A DNA stretch of 64,000 nt from an uncultured Mycobacteriaceae bacterium (GTDB lineage Bacteria; Actinomycetota; Actinomycetes; Mycobacteriales; Mycobacteriaceae). Made by a program: the position numbers and the translations under genes. The DNA lies in the NCBI GenBank assembly GCA_902826815.1, contig CADEGF010000007.1, positions 1-64,000 on the forward strand. The letters run 5' to 3'. Below are positions 23,418 to 62,506 of this stretch, piece after piece; within the stretch, counting starts at the first letter, position 1, and each line of letters begins with the position of its first letter. Under the pieces are notes generated by a model, which saw nothing but the letters and a program-made list of their open reading frames with translations, had not been told where the DNA came from and did not search any database.

Positions 23418-24131
23418 TCAGGCCACCCAGTACGCCTGCGCCTTCATCGACTTGCGCGGGATCTTGTACTCCTCGCGGAAGATCTTCGACACCGCGCGAG
23501 TCGTGCGGTTGTCGCAGGCGACCCAGCCGAAGTAGTCGGACGCGTCGAAGGCCGACGACCGCACCGCCTCCACGAGTGCGTCGCCGTCGTTGCGGTCCAC
23601 CCACACCACGTCGGTACCGCGAACGATCGGAATCTCGCGGTCGTCGTCGTGCGCCGTCTCGATGAACACCCGCGCAGGCGCGTCACCGATCGCGTCGAGC
23701 AGCGAGTTGATCGCGGGCAGCGACGCGGAGTCGCCGACGATGACATAGCCCGACGGCGCAGGCTCCGGCAGTGCGAAATTGCTGCCGAGGACGGTCACTT
23801 CGAGAACATCGCCGGGCTCGGCCTGTTGCGCCCACCGGGTGGCGAGGCCGTCGTGCATGGCGAAGTCGATGTCGACGGTGCCCGCGGCCGGGTCGGGGTT
23901 GACCAGGGTGTACCCGCGCATATGCGACTTCGCGCCGTCGGGAAACCAGCCGCGGATCCACATCGTCGGATGCAGTTCCTTATCGGCGAGCATCTCCTTC
24001 GCGGCGAAGTGCAGACGCAGATAGTTGGGGGTGATCTCGGTGCGACCGGTCACGGTGATCGCATAGTCGCCACCGCGCCATATCTTGCACAGGACGCCCT
24101 CGAATCCGCGTGACGTCTTCTGGTCAGCCAT
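23418..24131 (-). CDS. siderophore-interacting FAD/NAD(P)H reductase (ViuB-like)
   Basis: The 237-residue product has an N-terminal FAD-binding barrel (TPNYLRLHFAA, MRGYTLVNPDPAAGTVDIDF) and a C-terminal NAD(P)H-type domain (YVIVGDSASLPAINSLLDAIG). Proteins of this family release iron in the cytosol by reducing ferric siderophores. The ATG at 24131 is preceded by an IdeR-type iron box (24136-24154), so repression by iron-loaded IdeR is likely. It lies 111 bp upstream of the arylsulfatase on the same strand; that gap holds no visible terminator, so read-through is possible. Confidence 0.9.
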   Translation of the reverse strand: MADQKTSRGFEGVLCKIWRGGDYAITVTGRTEITPNYLRLHFAAKEMLADKELHPTMWIRGWFPDGAKSHMRGYTLVNPDPAAGTVDIDFAMHDGLATRWAQQAEPGDVLEVTVLGSNFALPEPAPSGYVIVGDSASLPAINSLLDAIGDAPARVFIETAHDDDREIPIVRGTDVVWVDRNDGDALVEAVRSSAFDASDYFGWVACDNRTTRAVSKIFREEYKIPRKSMKAQAYWVA

Positions 24132-24135
24132 TAAG

Positions 24136-24154
24136 CAAGGGTAGCCTAACCAAC
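24136..24154 (-). promoter_or_regulatory. IdeR iron box
   Basis: Read on the minus strand the site is GTTGGTTAGGCTACCCTTG, which matches the IdeR consensus TTAGGTTAGGCTAACCTAA at 14 of 19 positions, including the central GGTTAGGCTA. TAGGCT inside it could be the minus-10, so bound IdeR would block transcription. It lies 4 bp before the ATG of the siderophore-interacting protein. Confidence 0.75.
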
Positions 24155-24201: not shown

Positions 24202-24262
24202 CGCGAAATGGCATTCCAGCAGCGGAAGTGCGAGTGACGGCCTGCTTGGATGCAATCTCGCG
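24202..24262. repeat. 61-bp palindromic element, copy 1 (diverged)
   Basis: Left arm 24202-24223 and right arm 24241-24262 (22 nt each) flank a 17-nt spacer. The outer CGCGA and TCGCG, and cores such as GCATTCC, are shared with the copies at 49047 and 61560. The arms have several mismatches (left 3 and right 4 from the shared form), so this is the most decayed copy. It lies between the siderophore-interacting gene and the acyltransferase gene. Confidence 0.8.
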
Positions 24263-24266
24263 AAAT

Positions 24267-25418
24267 CTACGGGGAGCGGACCCGGGTGAATCGGTGTAGC
24301 AGCCACGCCAGCGGGACCGTCACGACGAACGTCGCGACGAAGAGCATGGGCATCGATCCCGTGTAGATGTGGAAGTGCAGGATCTCGACCATCACGAGCT
24401 CCATCGTGATCAGGTGGATCAGGAAGATCTCATACGAGATCTCACCGAGGAAGACCATCGGACGACTGGCGAGCAGCCGGGCGTACCAGCCGCGGTCACC
24501 CAGTGCCAACGGCGCGACGACGAGCGTCGCGATCACGGCATAGAAGACCGCCTTCCATACCGCGGGCGCGAGGGCATAGGGGGAGGTCGTCGGCTCCCCC
24601 GCGATCGGTGTCGAGGCGATGAAGTAACTCACCACCACGACCGGCAGAACGGCGAACGCGTAGCAGCGGACACCCATCACCGAGAGAACCGCGAGCATCA
24701 TGCCGCCGACGAACCACACCAGGTACGTCGGCAGCCACAGGCGCGCACCGTCGGGCAATCCGTCGACGGTGTGGACGAAGATCAACCACGCCGGCGTCGC
24801 CGCGGCCAGCAGCAGCAGGCCGCCGAGCAGCAGCACGGGGCGCCACCGGCGGCGACACAGCACCGCGAGCAGCAGCCAGGCCAGCAGCGGCAACACGACG
24901 TAGAACGCAGCCTCGACGGCCAGGCTCCACATTTGCGTAAGCCCTTGGTGCAGGAACGAGTACATGTACTGGTCGGTGTAGATCTGCGTCAGGCTCAGGT
25001 TGCGCAGGAAACCGATCCAGGTATGGCCCGGGTTAGGCCCGGCGTAGCGAAAGTGGTAGATCGCGTACGCCACGACGACGGTCACCGCATAGGCGGGCAT
25101 GATCCGTCGCACCCGGTGCCAGGCATAGCGGCGCACCGATGGCCAGTCGGTATCCGCCGCCGTCGCTTTCACCCACGGCCGGAAGAGCAGGAACCCGGAA
25201 AGCACGAAGAAGATCGGCACGCCCATCTCCATGCGGGCATACACGAGCCCCACATAGCCGTGCGTGTACTTGCCCGTGGTGTAGGCGGCGTGGGTGGCCA
25301 ACACGAGAAGCGCAGCGACGGCACGGATCCCCGTGAGTGATGCCACCCGGTCAGGCGTCGCGACGGATTCGAGACCGCCCTGCGCCTCAGAGCCGACGAC
25401 ACCCTTGGAGACGGTCAT
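24267..25418 (-). CDS. integral membrane acyltransferase (OafA/acyltransferase-3 family)
   Basis: The 383-residue product has about ten membrane helices and the family signatures RVASLTGIRAVAALLVLATHA near the N terminus (the His is the proposed catalytic residue), FFVLSGFLLFRPW and QMWSLAVEAAFYVVLP. Members transfer acyl groups to envelope sugars or lipids. The acceptor here is unknown. It corresponds in position to Rv1254. Its start overlaps the stop of deaD by 4 bp, so it is cotranslated with the helicase gene despite their unlike roles. Confidence 0.88.
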   Translation of the reverse strand: MTVSKGVVGSEAQGGLESVATPDRVASLTGIRAVAALLVLATHAAYTTGKYTHGYVGLVYARMEMGVPIFFVLSGFLLFRPWVKATAADTDWPSVRRYAWHRVRRIMPAYAVTVVVAYAIYHFRYAGPNPGHTWIGFLRNLSLTQIYTDQYMYSFLHQGLTQMWSLAVEAAFYVVLPLLAWLLLAVLCRRRWRPVLLLGGLLLLAAATPAWLIFVHTVDGLPDGARLWLPTYLVWFVGGMMLAVLSVMGVRCYAFAVLPVVVVSYFIASTPIAGEPTTSPYALAPAVWKAVFYAVIATLVVAPLALGDRGWYARLLASRPMVFLGEISYEIFLIHLITMELVMVEILHFHIYTGSMPMLFVATFVVTVPLAWLLHRFTRVRSP

Positions 25419-47916: not shown

Positions 47917-49026
47917 ATGCCTTCGTTCCGGGGCGCTCTGCCTCCCTCCCTCCGGCCGGCTCGCACCAAGCACAGCCACGACCGCTCCGACGCCAAGTCC
48001 ATCCACGTGCCCGTCGCGCGAGCGATGGTCGACTGCGGCATCTACGTCGACGGTAAGCGGCTGCCGGGCAAGTACACCCACGCCGCGGCGCTGAACAAGG
48101 TGCACGAGCTCGAAGCCGAGGGTAAGGACGCCTTCGTGTGGATCGGCCTGCACGAACCCGACGAGCACCAGATGATGGCGGTTGCCGACGTATTCGGGCT
48201 GCACGAACTGGCCGTCGAAGACGCCGTACACGCCCACCAGCGACCGAAACTGGAGCGCTACGACAAGACCTTGTTCATGGTCCTCAAGACGGTGAACTAC
48301 ATCGAGCACCTGTCCGTCGCTCTGGCTCGCGAAATCGTCGAGACCGGCGAGATCATGATCTTCGTCGGCGCCGACTTCGTCGTGACGGTCCGGCACGGCG
48401 AGCACGGTGAGCTGGCCGGGGTGCGCAGGCGGCTCGAAGCCTCCCCCGCCCTGCTCAAGTTGGGCCCCTACGCGATCATGCACGCGATCGCCGACCACGT
48501 CGTCGACGACTATCTCGACGTCACCGATCTCATCGAGGTCGACATCGACGCGATGGAGGAGGACATCTTCTCGCCGTTGAAGCAGACCAATATCGAATGC
48601 ATCTACCTGCTCAAGCGGGAAGTCGTCGAGCTGCGAAGGGCCGTGAACCCTTTCACGCTTGCACTGCAGCGGCTGCACACCGACCACAACGACCTCATCT
48701 CCGTCGAGGTCCGCCGTTATATGCGCGACGTGCTCGACCACAACATCCAGGCCTCCGACCGAATCACCAGCTACGATGAAATGCTCAGCTCGCTGGTGCA
48801 GGCCGCGCTTGGCAAGGTGGCGATGCAGCAGAACGTCGATATGCGCAAGATCTCGGCGTGGGTGGCGATCGCCGCTGTGCCGACAGCGCTTGCAGGCATC
48901 TACGGGATGAACTTCGAGCACATGCCCGAGCTGCAGTGGACGTGGGGTTATCCGGCCGTGCTGATGGTGATGTTCTGCGTCTGCTTCCTTCTCTACCGGA
49001 CGTTCCGCCGCAACCACTGGCTGTGA
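47917..49026 (+). CDS. corA: magnesium/cobalt transport protein CorA
   Basis: The 369-residue product has a large cytosolic domain and two C-terminal membrane helices, with the family signature YGMNF at the end of TM1 (ISAWVAIAAVPTALAGIYGMNF) followed by an acidic loop (EHMPELQWTWGYP) and TM2. CorA pentamers carry Mg2+ into the cell. A strong ribosome-binding site (AGGAGG) precedes ATG 47917. No Mg-sensing riboswitch is recognisable in the 154-bp gap to mdh. The palindromic element at 49047 follows its stop after 20 bp. It matches Rv1239c. Confidence 0.93.
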   Translation: MPSFRGALPPSLRPARTKHSHDRSDAKSIHVPVARAMVDCGIYVDGKRLPGKYTHAAALNKVHELEAEGKDAFVWIGLHEPDEHQMMAVADVFGLHELAVEDAVHAHQRPKLERYDKTLFMVLKTVNYIEHLSVALAREIVETGEIMIFVGADFVVTVRHGEHGELAGVRRRLEASPALLKLGPYAIMHAIADHVVDDYLDVTDLIEVDIDAMEEDIFSPLKQTNIECIYLLKREVVELRRAVNPFTLALQRLHTDHNDLISVEVRRYMRDVLDHNIQASDRITSYDEMLSSLVQAALGKVAMQQNVDMRKISAWVAIAAVPTALAGIYGMNFEHMPELQWTWGYPAVLMVMFCVCFLLYRTFRRNHWL

Positions 49027-49046
49027 GCTCCCGCGAAGCCCGCCCG

Positions 49047-49107
49047 CGCGAAATTGCATTCCGGCAGGCCGTCTCTCGCGATTTCCCTGCCGGAATGCAA
49101 TTTCGCG
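49047..49107. repeat. 61-bp palindromic element, copy 2 (perfect)
   Basis: The 22-nt arms (49047-49068 and 49086-49107) are perfect inverted copies of one another, starting CGCGAAATTGCATTCC, around a 17-nt spacer. The element lies between the convergent corA and SUFU-domain genes, ending 6 bp before the end of the latter. It could act as a terminator on either side, though no U-run follows. See copies at 24202 and 61560. Confidence 0.9.
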
Positions 49108-49113
49108 GAGGGT

Positions 49114-49698
49114 CTAGCTGGGTGCTGAGGCTTTCCGGTGCGGGTCGAGCACGTCAACGCCGTCGCTCTGCCACGCCTCCCGCAGTGCGGGCGCCCCCTT
49201 GAGCCGCACCCACGCCGCCTCCGTCGGTGTGATCGGAATGGCCGAAAGCACTGCGACCGGGTCGCGGGGCGCGGGCAGTTCGACGTCGCTGATCTCGCTG
49301 CGGCCCAACAGGAATGCCGTGAACGCGGCGCCACTCCACAGCGGACTACCGAGGTCGACGAGCGCGTCGGGAGCCAGCACCAATCCCTCCACGGCGGGTG
49401 CGGCGGCCAGCACCGCGACGCTGCGAGCCAGGCCTGTCGGTGTGGTCCCGCGCAACGCGACCGCCACCTCAGCACGGGGTCCGCGTACGGCACTTCTTTC
49501 GGCGGCGGCGAACTCGGCGGGATCGGTCATCGGCTCGCGTGAACACCCTAGCGACACATAGTGAATAACGCCGTCGTCGGATCCAAACCGCAGCACATCG
49601 AAGGACCGCGTGCCCAGAAACGTCACGCTCGCGGCGTCGGGTTCCCTGGCGAAGTGCGCGCACAGGTGGGCACGAACGTCGGCCAGGACGTCCGTCAC
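49114..49698 (-). CDS. suppressor-of-fused (SUFU) domain protein
   Basis: The 194-residue product is a SUFU-domain protein: an N-terminal half with VTFLGTRSFDVLRFGSDDGVIHYVSLGCS, a middle with AVALRGTTPTGLARSVAVLA, and PITPTEAAWVRLKGAPALREA near the end. Bacterial SUFU proteins are mostly uncharacterised; many occur as immunity proteins for polymorphic toxins, but no toxin is near. Its GTG start overlaps the sugC stop (GTGA), so it is translationally coupled to the trehalose importer operon, where I recall no such gene in H37Rv. The role in sugar uptake, if any, is unknown. Confidence 0.78.
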   Translation of the reverse strand: MTDVLADVRAHLCAHFAREPDAASVTFLGTRSFDVLRFGSDDGVIHYVSLGCSREPMTDPAEFAAAERSAVRGPRAEVAVALRGTTPTGLARSVAVLAAAPAVEGLVLAPDALVDLGSPLWSGAAFTAFLLGRSEISDVELPAPRDPVAVLSAIPITPTEAAWVRLKGAPALREAWQSDGVDVLDPHRKASAPS

Positions 49699-60403: not shown

Positions 60404-61549
60404 GTGATGTCACAACGTCCCACTGAGCTGGAATCCGCGATCCGCGCCTGCCTCGCCAAGGTGATCGACCCTGAGTTGCGCAGGCCGATCACCGAGCTCG
60501 GCATGGTCAAGAGCGTCGATGTCGAGGCCGACGGCGGCGTGCACGTCGCCGTGTACCTGACCACCGAGGCATGCCCGAAGAAGGCCGAGATCTCCGAGCG
60601 GGTGGTGGCCGCGGTCGCCGATGTGCCTGGCACCGGCGCCGTCAAGGTCACCCTGGACGTCATGAACGACGAGCAGCGCACCGAGTTGCGCAAGCAGTTG
60701 CGCGGCGACGCCCGCGAACCCGTCATCCCGTTCGCCCAGCCCGGCTCGCTGACGCGGGTGTACGCCGTCGCATCGGGTAAGGGCGGCGTCGGCAAGTCCA
60801 GCGTGACGGTCAACCTCGCCGCGGCGATGGCGACCCGCGGGCTGTCGGTCGGCGTGCTCGACGCCGATATCTACGGCCATTCGATTCCGCGGATGATGGG
60901 CACCGACGAGCGGCCGACCCAGGTCGAGTCGATGATCCTCCCGCCGATCGCCCACGACGTGCGGGTGATCTCGATAGCGCAATTCACGCAGGGCAATACG
61001 CCGGTGGTGTGGCGCGGTCCGATGCTGCACAGGGCGCTTCAGCAGTTCCTGGCCGACGTGTACTGGGGCGATCTTGACGTGCTGCTGCTGGACCTCCCAC
61101 CGGGCACCGGCGACGTCGCGATCTCGGTCGCGCAGCTGATCCCCGGCGCCGAAATCCTGGTCGTCACAACGCCACAACTGGCCGCAGCCGAAGTCGCCGA
61201 GCGCGCGGGTGCGATCGCACTGCAGACCCGCCAGCGCATCGTCGGCGTGGTCGAGAACATGTCCGGCTTGGTGCTGCCCGACGGCACCACGATGCAGGTG
61301 TTCGGCGAGGGCGGCGGACGCCAGGTCGCCGAGAGGCTGACGACGGCCATTGGCGCGGACGTCCCACTGCTCGGGCAGGTTCCGTTGGACCCCGCGCTGG
61401 TGTCCGCAGGAGACTCCGGGGTGCCGTTGGTGCTCAGCGCACCGGATTCGGCCGCAGGCAAGGAGTTACGCGGCATCGCGGACGCGATCTCGTCCCGTAA
61501 GCGCGGGCTCGCGGGGATGTCGCTGGGGCTGGATCCCAGCGCACGCTGA
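60404..61549 (+). CDS. mrp: Mrp/NBP35-family iron-sulfur carrier ATPase
   Basis: The 381-residue product has an N-terminal MIP18/DUF59 domain (VIDPELRRPITELGMV) and a P-loop ATPase domain with deviant Walker A GKGGVGKS (124-131) and DLPPGTGD. Mrp proteins carry Fe-S clusters to target enzymes and bind them through a C-terminal CxxC. Here the corresponding segment reads VENMSGLVLPDGTTMQVFG, with no cysteine pair, so cluster binding must differ or be lost. I recall the same feature in other actinobacterial Mrp proteins. It matches Rv1229c. The palindromic element at 61560 follows after 10 bp. Confidence 0.93.
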   Translation: MMSQRPTELESAIRACLAKVIDPELRRPITELGMVKSVDVEADGGVHVAVYLTTEACPKKAEISERVVAAVADVPGTGAVKVTLDVMNDEQRTELRKQLRGDAREPVIPFAQPGSLTRVYAVASGKGGVGKSSVTVNLAAAMATRGLSVGVLDADIYGHSIPRMMGTDERPTQVESMILPPIAHDVRVISIAQFTQGNTPVVWRGPMLHRALQQFLADVYWGDLDVLLLDLPPGTGDVAISVAQLIPGAEILVVTTPQLAAAEVAERAGAIALQTRQRIVGVVENMSGLVLPDGTTMQVFGEGGGRQVAERLTTAIGADVPLLGQVPLDPALVSAGDSGVPLVLSAPDSAAGKELRGIADAISSRKRGLAGMSLGLDPSAR

Positions 61550-61559
61550 TTTTTCTCTA

Positions 61560-61620
61560 CGCGAGATTGCATTCTGGCAGGGCTCTACTCGGAGTTTTCC
61601 TGCCGGAATGCAATTTCGCG
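61560..61620. repeat. 61-bp palindromic element, copy 3
   Basis: The arms (61560-61581 and 61599-61620) pair over 22 positions with two mismatches, both of which become G-U wobbles in RNA. The right arm is identical to that of the copy at 49047, and the spacer is again 17 nt, ending in TTTT. It lies between mrp and the downstream membrane protein gene, both on the plus strand, so it may terminate or process the mrp transcript. Confidence 0.9.
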
Positions 61621-61636
61621 GCCAGACTTAGGCGCG

Positions 61637-62506
61637 ATGGACTCCGAACAGGTCATCCGCATAGCGCTGACGGTCGTCACGCCGATCCTGACGGCGGGAA
61701 TCGGCATCGTCGCATTGGTGATCGGCGACTGGCGCGAACGCCGGACGCAGGAAGGCCGGCGCAAGGTCTCGTTCGAAGACGCCACCCGGCAGGTCCAATT
61801 CGCCTCCGACTGGTTCAACGCCAGCAAGCTGATCACCCCCGACGAGGAGCAGGCCGCCGCGGCACGGTCGCGGGCGTGGCTGGAAGAGGCCTCCGAACTG
61901 GTCGCCGAGACGAAACCGCCACCGCGCTCTGAAGAGAAGCGATCCGTCACCGCTCGCCGACTGCTGCTCGCCTACCCGATGCATCGACGCGGCGCGCGGG
62001 TGCTTCGCGGCTTCTACTACTTCTTCCTCGGCATGGTGATCTTCCAGGTCTCCGGGGCGTTGGCCTCGATCTTCGGCAGAGCGGACACGCTTGGCGTGCC
62101 CAACTACTTCTCCGGCGGGCTGATCTACGCCGACCTCGCAGGCATCTTCATGTACACGCTCATCGCGATGGGGTTCCGCTTCTGGTCGCTGCGTGTCGAG
62201 AAATCGCACACCGCGGACGAGCCACAGCCTCGGATGACGCTGCGAAATGCTTTGTTGTTGTACCGGTTCACCGGGATTCGCGCCAGCATCGCGCGGATCG
62301 TCTTCTGGTTGTGGCTGTTTTTGACCGCATTCATCGTCGTCGTGATCGTGATGAGCGCCGTCGACGACCCGCGGATCTTGGCTTCCAACCTCGTTGTACT
62401 CGTCGCCTGGATCGGATGGGCGGTCGGCATCCGCTACTGGGCGGAGTCACACAACGAACGCGCCATTGAGCGGGCCGGCCAACGCGCGGAGGCCGCCAAA
62501 GGCTAG
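61637..62506 (+). CDS. membrane protein of unknown function
   Basis: The 289-residue product has an N-terminal membrane helix (about 5-30, [20 protein letters not shown]), a charged cytosolic region (35-115), two hydrophobic segments (about 127-185), and another pair near the C terminus (about 220-265), ending in the charged [12 protein letters not shown] recognise no family. The start codon lies 16 bp after the palindromic element. It is convergent with tatB, which it overlaps by 4 bp. I recall other genes (Rv1225c-Rv1228) at this place in H37Rv. Confidence 0.7.

Follow-up and report, generated by a model that had tools for sequence, protein, structure and literature searches.

A dispersed REP-like 61-bp palindrome of mycobacteria, paired with an AbiEi-like protein gene that may drive its spread

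What are the long palindromes that follow genes in a mycobacterial genome, and what could have carried them there? The question is raised by a stretch of 64,000 nucleotides from an uncultured Mycobacteriaceae bacterium (contig CADEGF010000007.1, positions 1 to 64,000; hereafter the window). A reading of the window from its sequence alone had placed 61-bp palindromes at 24202-24262, 49047-49107 and 61560-61620 and had proposed either a mobile, REP- or MITE-like hairpin or a termination signal. The explanation towards which we lean is that of a REP-like, non-autonomous repeat that is paired with the gene of an AbiEi-like protein and would owe its spread to this protein.

The 61-bp palindrome and its family

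Palindromes of 61 bp do stand at these three places, and an inverted-repeat listing confirms arms of 22 nt around a gap of 17 nt for 49047-49107 and 61560-61620. The copy at 49047-49107 (plus strand) is the perfect one, with 100% complementary arms of 22 bp (49047-49068 and 49086-49107) and a 17-nt loop that holds the core CTCG at 49075-49078. At 61560-61620 (plus strand, core CTCG at 61588-61591), the arms are 91% complementary and their two mismatches can indeed form G-U pairs, on the plus strand only; this copy folds with -44.3 kcal/mol on the plus versus -32.7 kcal/mol on the minus strand. The arms of the third copy, at 24202-24262 (minus strand, core CTCG at 24234-24231), are partly decayed, as had been noticed, with 16 of 20 outer pairs left, and the inverted-repeat listing does not contain it. 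When 16 or more of 20 outer pairs are required, the 64-kb window holds exactly these three palindromes in the length range 53-67 bp, versus a mean of 0.6 in local shuffles (n = 5). A chance origin is ruled out by these shuffles and by a reversed-pattern control, which gave 0 matches. The Rfam scan of the window returned zero matches at the gathering score, and three sub-threshold matches of miRNA models at the element were taken as generic hairpin matches.

The length of the element is almost always the same beyond these copies too. In the genome from which the window comes (hereafter the source genome), a pattern with a free gap of 13-27 nt matches 13 places, every one of them 61 bp long (the reversed control being the one cited above). 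A covariance model trained on 23 copies of this genome finds 37 distinct places at E<=0.1, of which 30 are below 1e-6 (the 23 training copies included); 34 of the 37 are exactly 61 bp and the other three 57-59 bp long. The family thus has about 30 places in the source genome. A genus-level set was also assembled, with 122 places and 120 distinct sequences from 112 loci, mostly chosen around matches. When the arms are scored independently at any distance up to 120, the length is 61 bp in 236 of 236 pairings, in loci preselected with a 61-position model; because of this preselection, the free-gap pattern in the source genome is the cleaner length test.

The spacer, which had been described as variable, turns out to be constrained and oriented rather than free, since it holds a core that is fixed in orientation. 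Once the copies are put in the orientation that has CTCG on the forward strand, columns 29-32 do not vary among the 23 copies of the source genome, and CTCG occupies them in 118 of the 120 distinct copies, which come from about 30 genomes. All 120 also have CGA at positions 3-5 and TCG at 57-59. The stems keep pairing while their letters change: 2400 of 2684 stem cells are Watson-Crick pairs, and alternative pairs occur at 1-61, 8-54, 9-53, 17-45 and 21-41. G-U cells outnumber A-C cells (71 vs 49), but this bias vanishes without the pair 22-40 (46 vs 49) and there is therefore no clear preference for one RNA strand.

Of the 118 genomes that were sampled in the genus, 98 have at least one match at E<=0.01 and 20 have none. 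Copy counts are very uneven between species; as at most 46 candidates were scored per genome and both strands were counted, these counts reflect the number of copies only approximately. A more complete search (E<=1e-7, both strands) gives 62 matches in G048, 34 in G101, 48 in G098, and eight each in G038 and G076. This search of the source genome and of the genus, which had been suggested with the first description, thus reveals many intergenic copies with a strong bias towards 3' ends, and neither a family of three copies nor one lying mainly inside genes.

Such a short element with inverted ends, a fixed length and a patchy copy number could be an ordinary MITE, its terminal inverted repeats deriving from an insertion sequence that has lost its transposase or has it elsewhere. 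This seems very improbable, however, because 27 of the 32 arm matches in the source genome (0-1 mismatch) are parts of 61-bp copies, with no longer element seen between two arms, because the gene found between copies (see below) is AbiEi-like, and because inspection by eye revealed no target-site duplication beside the copies, the ends of the element being putative. Collections of phages and plasmids hold no similar DNA, which also speaks against a MITE. Viral contigs contain no exact pattern match and, among 33 pattern matches, no relative of the partner protein.

Placement after stop codons

As had been claimed, each copy of the window directly follows a stop codon; its neighbours were placed by ORFs and third-position G+C alone. 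The copy at 49047-49107 lies 20 bp past the end of the ORF 47917-49026(+), which we take to be CorA, and 6 bp past the end of the convergent ORF 49114-49698(-). That at 61560-61620 stands 10 bp past the end of the ORF 60404-61549(+), presumably Mrp-like, in tandem with the next ORF, 61637-62506(+). The third, 24202-24262, is 4 bp past the end of the ORF 24267-25418(-), assumed to be an acyltransferase, and precedes the ORF 23418-24131(-). Before this last ORF, at 24133-24153, stands TAAGCAAGGGTAGCCTAACCA, which in our opinion resembles an iron-repressor box.

The same placement is seen in the genus-level set. A called gene end lies at most 20 bp away from 105 of the 122 copies, and 146 of 175 called ends are within 20 bp of an element. 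Among the 111 copies that could be classified (the 11 with an uncalled side were left out), 61 are between convergent, 44 between tandem and six between divergent genes, versus 26, 52 and 33 expected from the intergenic space of the window and of 80 named loci, as delimited by a simple ORF caller. The base at -1 is C in 93 of the 122 copies and that at +1 is G in 90; T prevails in the left flank and A in the right one, so that from either side it is A rather than U that comes after the hairpin.

Orthologous junctions are occupied irregularly. At the junction of 49047, the element is present in four of 30 loci (the source genome, L114, L118 and, with a reversed core, L121); L139 may hold an eroded element, and in many others the stop codons are only 4-40 bp apart. 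Tandem units of the GGCGGCTCGCCGCTCA type occur at the junction corresponding to 49026-49114 in L115, L116, L119, L120 and L127. At the junction of 61560, three of 30 loci carry the element (the source genome, L146 and L161), and other hairpins are found in L155, L156 and L170, in L157 and in L160. In the first three of these, the junction corresponding to 61550-61640 bears another hairpin family, GCGATTTCGGCGCG - 25 nt - CGCGCCGAAATCGC. Yet another family is the 64-bp palindrome AGTGTGCGTTCAGATCGC... of L352:11991 and L354:12317, nearly identical in two species. Beside some elements of the source genome (G000), tandem or direct duplications of gene ends are observed (C9:12314, C12:99920, C47:35012, C49:46299 and C74:15726), the copy at C9:12314 having a 16-bp direct repeat on both sides.

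The nearness of gene ends, the excess of convergent neighbours, the stability of the hairpins, the pairing kept in stems whose letters change and the occupation of the 61560 junction by other hairpins in some species are what would be expected of bidirectional terminators or of hairpins that stabilise 3' ends. Such hairpins would be useful after stops, the gene that they bracket being incidental or using them as ends of its own. We consider this explanation unlikely. A U-tract is absent, the sequence after the stem being A-rich in both directions in the 122 copies, and a terminator scan of 48500-49600 found no site; U-tract (intrinsic) termination, one of the two original proposals, is thus not supported. 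Furthermore, a terminator needs neither a specific core nor a fixed length, nor sequence families that track a protein family, and tolerated mobile repeats such as REPs are also placed after stops, according to their description in PMC3733652. The hairpins may nonetheless serve at Rho-dependent ends or in the stabilisation of RNA. As for the other proposal, a REP- or MITE-like repeat, it is strengthened by the numerous intergenic copies, their bias towards 3' ends and their uneven counts, and loses only the free spacer.

An AbiEi-like gene bracketed by palindromes

The first reading was formed from the window alone, and the gene family that appears to be the partner of the palindrome lies outside it. 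In the source genome, two copies about 0.95 kb apart bracket one gene, at C44:21947-22765. Among the 31 closest gene loci (at least 57% identity), matrix scoring places elements on both sides of the gene in 12, on a single side in another 12 and on neither in seven, several of the element scores being weak (21-44); the elements stand 47-93 bp before the aligned start and 3-51 bp downstream of the gene. The same matrix finds none at 26 more distant paralogues, of which the covariance model recovers one, upstream of L279. Some of these distant paralogues have different palindromes in a similar layout.

This layout was followed in 80 named loci, the best 80 of 550 matches, all titled as mycobacteria. 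With at least 15 of 20 outer pairs, a palindrome is found upstream in 52 of 79 named loci versus six of 203 background windows, and downstream in 18 of 80 versus four of 203; at the stricter cut-off of 17 of 20, the counts are 26 upstream and nine downstream, with none in the background on either side. At 15 of 20, an upstream palindrome is missing from 28 of the 80 loci and a downstream one from most of them. The core of the first loop type is present upstream in 37 of the 80 loci versus six of 685 background windows. A second loop type, ACACGCCG, precedes four proteins that are close in leaf order (L385, L393, L395 and L408). Its core is also seen in the solitary hairpin of L160, at the junction orthologous to 61550-61640. 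Altogether, 94 gene loci represent up to 37 locations.

Palindromes and proteins vary together. The upstream and downstream palindromes of the same gene match at 17.4 of 20 positions versus 10.5 between genes (n = 15; 0 of 20000 shuffles), with one exception among these 15 units, L399, whose palindromes are unlike (7 of 20). Protein identity correlates with palindrome similarity (r 0.44, n = 35, p 2e-4). Relatives that have diverged from the gene are accompanied by their own palindromes, at the same offsets. That the palindrome brackets the AbiEi-like gene suggests a repeat spreading with its own partner gene.

The protein appears to be AbiEi-like, with a C-terminus that weakly resembles restriction endonucleases. 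The AbiEi models of PADLOC match 45 of 46 members, the similarity spanning about residues 33-150. In Pfam (E<=0.1, 22 members), REase_MTES_1575 is matched by 19 members, DUF559 by 12 and AbiEi_1 by eight; among six proteins spot-checked at the curated cut-off, one passes and one lacks any match. The DUF7030 model also matches one bracketed protein. The conserved residues E, D, EYDGxxH and D could, on weak grounds, fit a predicted restriction-endonuclease-like site, and the search for relatives of solved structure gave three matches, at E 0.05-0.09, none of them convincing. No transposase model (HUH/Y1) is among the families matching the bracketed proteins. PF04480 (DUF559) as such was rejected as the partner: it has 18 matches in five genomes, the five of the source genome all being away from elements, and the right partner subfamily scores below the threshold of this model.

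The AbiEi family includes a regulator with comparable sites. As described in PMC7319586, the promoter of Rv2827c contains pairs of 23-bp inverted repeats, separated by 13 bp, to which the protein itself binds. This is close to the 22+17+22 arrangement of the mycobacterial element and, together with the protein similarity and the inverted half-sites present upstream of the AbiEi-like gene, recalls AbiEi-type operators. The upstream distance is regular, 21 of the 35 stronger upstream palindromes lying 59-63 bp before the aligned start (a start set a few codons inside the gene), and by analogy a 22+17+22 layout about 60 bp upstream would fit binding of the Rv2827c kind. The palindromes could then be operators of the AbiEi-like protein, used for autoregulation and as dispersed bound sites, and spread by selection instead of mobility. 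This appears quite unlikely to us, as solitary palindromes are dispersed at gene ends and not in promoters (recall that only six of the 111 classified copies are between divergent genes), as the gene is often bracketed on both sides, with a second copy downstream, and as a patchy distribution among species and the alternation described below are unexpected for a regulon. The partner protein also differs from AbiEi antitoxins by its additional endonuclease-like C-terminal part.

Units, solitary palindromes and their possible spread

As far as the aligned sequences tell, a palindrome-gene-palindrome unit alternates with a single palindrome (solo) at one locus across species. The flanks of the units of M. 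lehmannii (L332), L304, L305, L306 and L333 adjoin in G101 (L174) and G113 (L186), where they surround one single 61-bp element. Up to and including column 72, the solo of G101 and its left flank show a single difference from the upstream palindrome and flank of M. lehmannii; from column 73 on, the sequence follows the downstream palindrome and flank, again with one difference. The unit L331 and a solo of the source genome (C22:55534) display the same upstream-to-downstream switch with more divergence. At these two loci, the solo thus reads as the left part of an upstream palindrome joined to the right part of a downstream one. A similar switch between L309 and L178 was judged by eye. At two further junctions, the units and the solo that share one spot belong to different palindrome families (L361/L388 vs L104; L362/L373 vs L175).

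We also considered that the gene might have been inserted in the loop of a palindrome already in place. Outer-outer plus inner-inner arm matches exceed within-palindrome matches in seven of 17 units (two lower, eight equal; Wilcoxon p 0.29), and comparison with direct-repeat matches gives six higher, eight lower and three equal (p 0.20). Individual units (L331, L332, L333 and L305) resemble such an insertion, but overall it is unsupported and was rejected.

Both flanks are recognised in another locus for 71 of the 122 copies, many of these being the same genome sampled twice. The relatives sampled for G048 proved too distant for a comparison of empty sites. The remaining comparisons, among the matches listed, comprise retained copies, reversed-core copies and empty sites; no transposition event was seen in the compared loci. 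The core is reversed relative to the flanks in L086 vs L350/L207, in L200 vs L221 and at the corA-type junction of L121, as if the palindrome had flipped at orthologous positions.

Genomes rich in copies tend to hold a close relative of the gene. The closer its best gene homologue is, the more copy matches a genome tends to have (rho 0.55, n = 118, kinship being ignored), also when the source genome is excluded (rho 0.54, kinship again ignored and at most 46 candidates scored per genome). The eight genomes with the closest homologues besides the source genome all have at least 19 matches, and at least 15 matches are found in 12 of 19 genomes with a gene -log10 E of at least 104 versus 11 of 98 others. 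The trend is broken by G101 (42 matches) and G113 (36), both of which have a solo where their relatives have the gene. Solos are closer to the gene-flanking copies of their own genome (0.853) than to those of others (0.787; p 5e-4, seven genomes with at least two solos), but the own gene-flanking copy is their best match in only three of the seven.

These features bring to mind REPs and REPtrons. RAYT-associated REPs are palindromes that measure 20-40 bp and bear a GTAG or CGTC tag; their partner is a HUH/Y1 tyrosine transposase, the RAYT. As presented in PMC3733652, REPs with their REPtrons, and TIRtrons, share with the mycobacterial system a gene bracketed by repeats, several repeat families each with its partner gene, dispersed copies that lie outside genes but close to 3' ends, in many cases those of convergent genes, and large differences between species. 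By contrast, the mycobacterial element has 61 bp instead of 20-40 bp, no GTAG (or CTAC) is found in the outer 6 nt of any of the 120 distinct copies, and the models that the bracketed gene matches are those of AbiEi and, weakly, of REases, with no HUH/Y1 transposase among them. Lacking both a GTAG tag and a HUH transposase, the system was not filed as a REPtron; we rather infer a REP/REPtron-like system with another kind of partner, whose protein would mobilise the palindrome. To our knowledge, every REP family for which a dedicated mobiliser has been described is associated with a HUH transposase. We found no description, in the open-licence literature, of a palindrome paired with an AbiEi-like gene.

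Nuclease genes such as those of Vsr-like or EDxHD homing endonucleases may move between copies of their recognition site. The nuclease-like gene studied here possibly does so too; unlike them, it is outside any intron or intein, and cutting by its product is only predicted. Among the hairpins of mycobacteria, TRIT is reportedly located downstream of genes. It is named, with RNIE, as an intergenic hairpin in PMC3526491, and the CGAAA(N)19TTTCG hairpin (PMC5217627) and the Myt families (PMC2267715) are presented as repeated stem-loops of mycobacteria. All resemble the 61-bp element in being repeated stem-loops, a likeness drawn from these descriptions, but CGAAA and TTTCG are 51 apart in the element and not 19 as given in PMC5217627. 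TRIT is a possible sister family, for example of the ACACGCCG loop type.

Under the reading that we prefer, a REP-like repeat spread by its AbiEi-like partner, the protein would bind the arms of the palindrome, as AbiEi-family proteins bind inverted repeats, and its nuclease-like part would cut or nick near the core. Repair from another copy could then spread both the gene unit and solitary palindromes, and unit and solo would be converted into each other when the two palindromes that flank the gene recombine, or by the opposite process. Copies would persist mainly after stop codons, where insertion is least harmful and a stem-loop may be tolerated or useful. The fuller version, a new REP-like mobile class in which an AbiEi-like, REase-like protein recognises its own palindrome, cuts at CTCG, homes into palindromes and copies them, is put forward tentatively.

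If true, this class would comprise many co-evolved subfamilies of gene and palindrome, with solos remaining where the gene was lost. A repeat family with the life-style of REPs but tied to an AbiEi- and nuclease-like protein would represent a second bacterial route to dispersed palindromes, would give a testable function to a mycobacterial gene family that has many copies and no known role, and would partly account for the long hairpins at many mycobacterial gene ends. The question of what moves these hairpins becomes one that can be tested with one protein and one 61-bp DNA.
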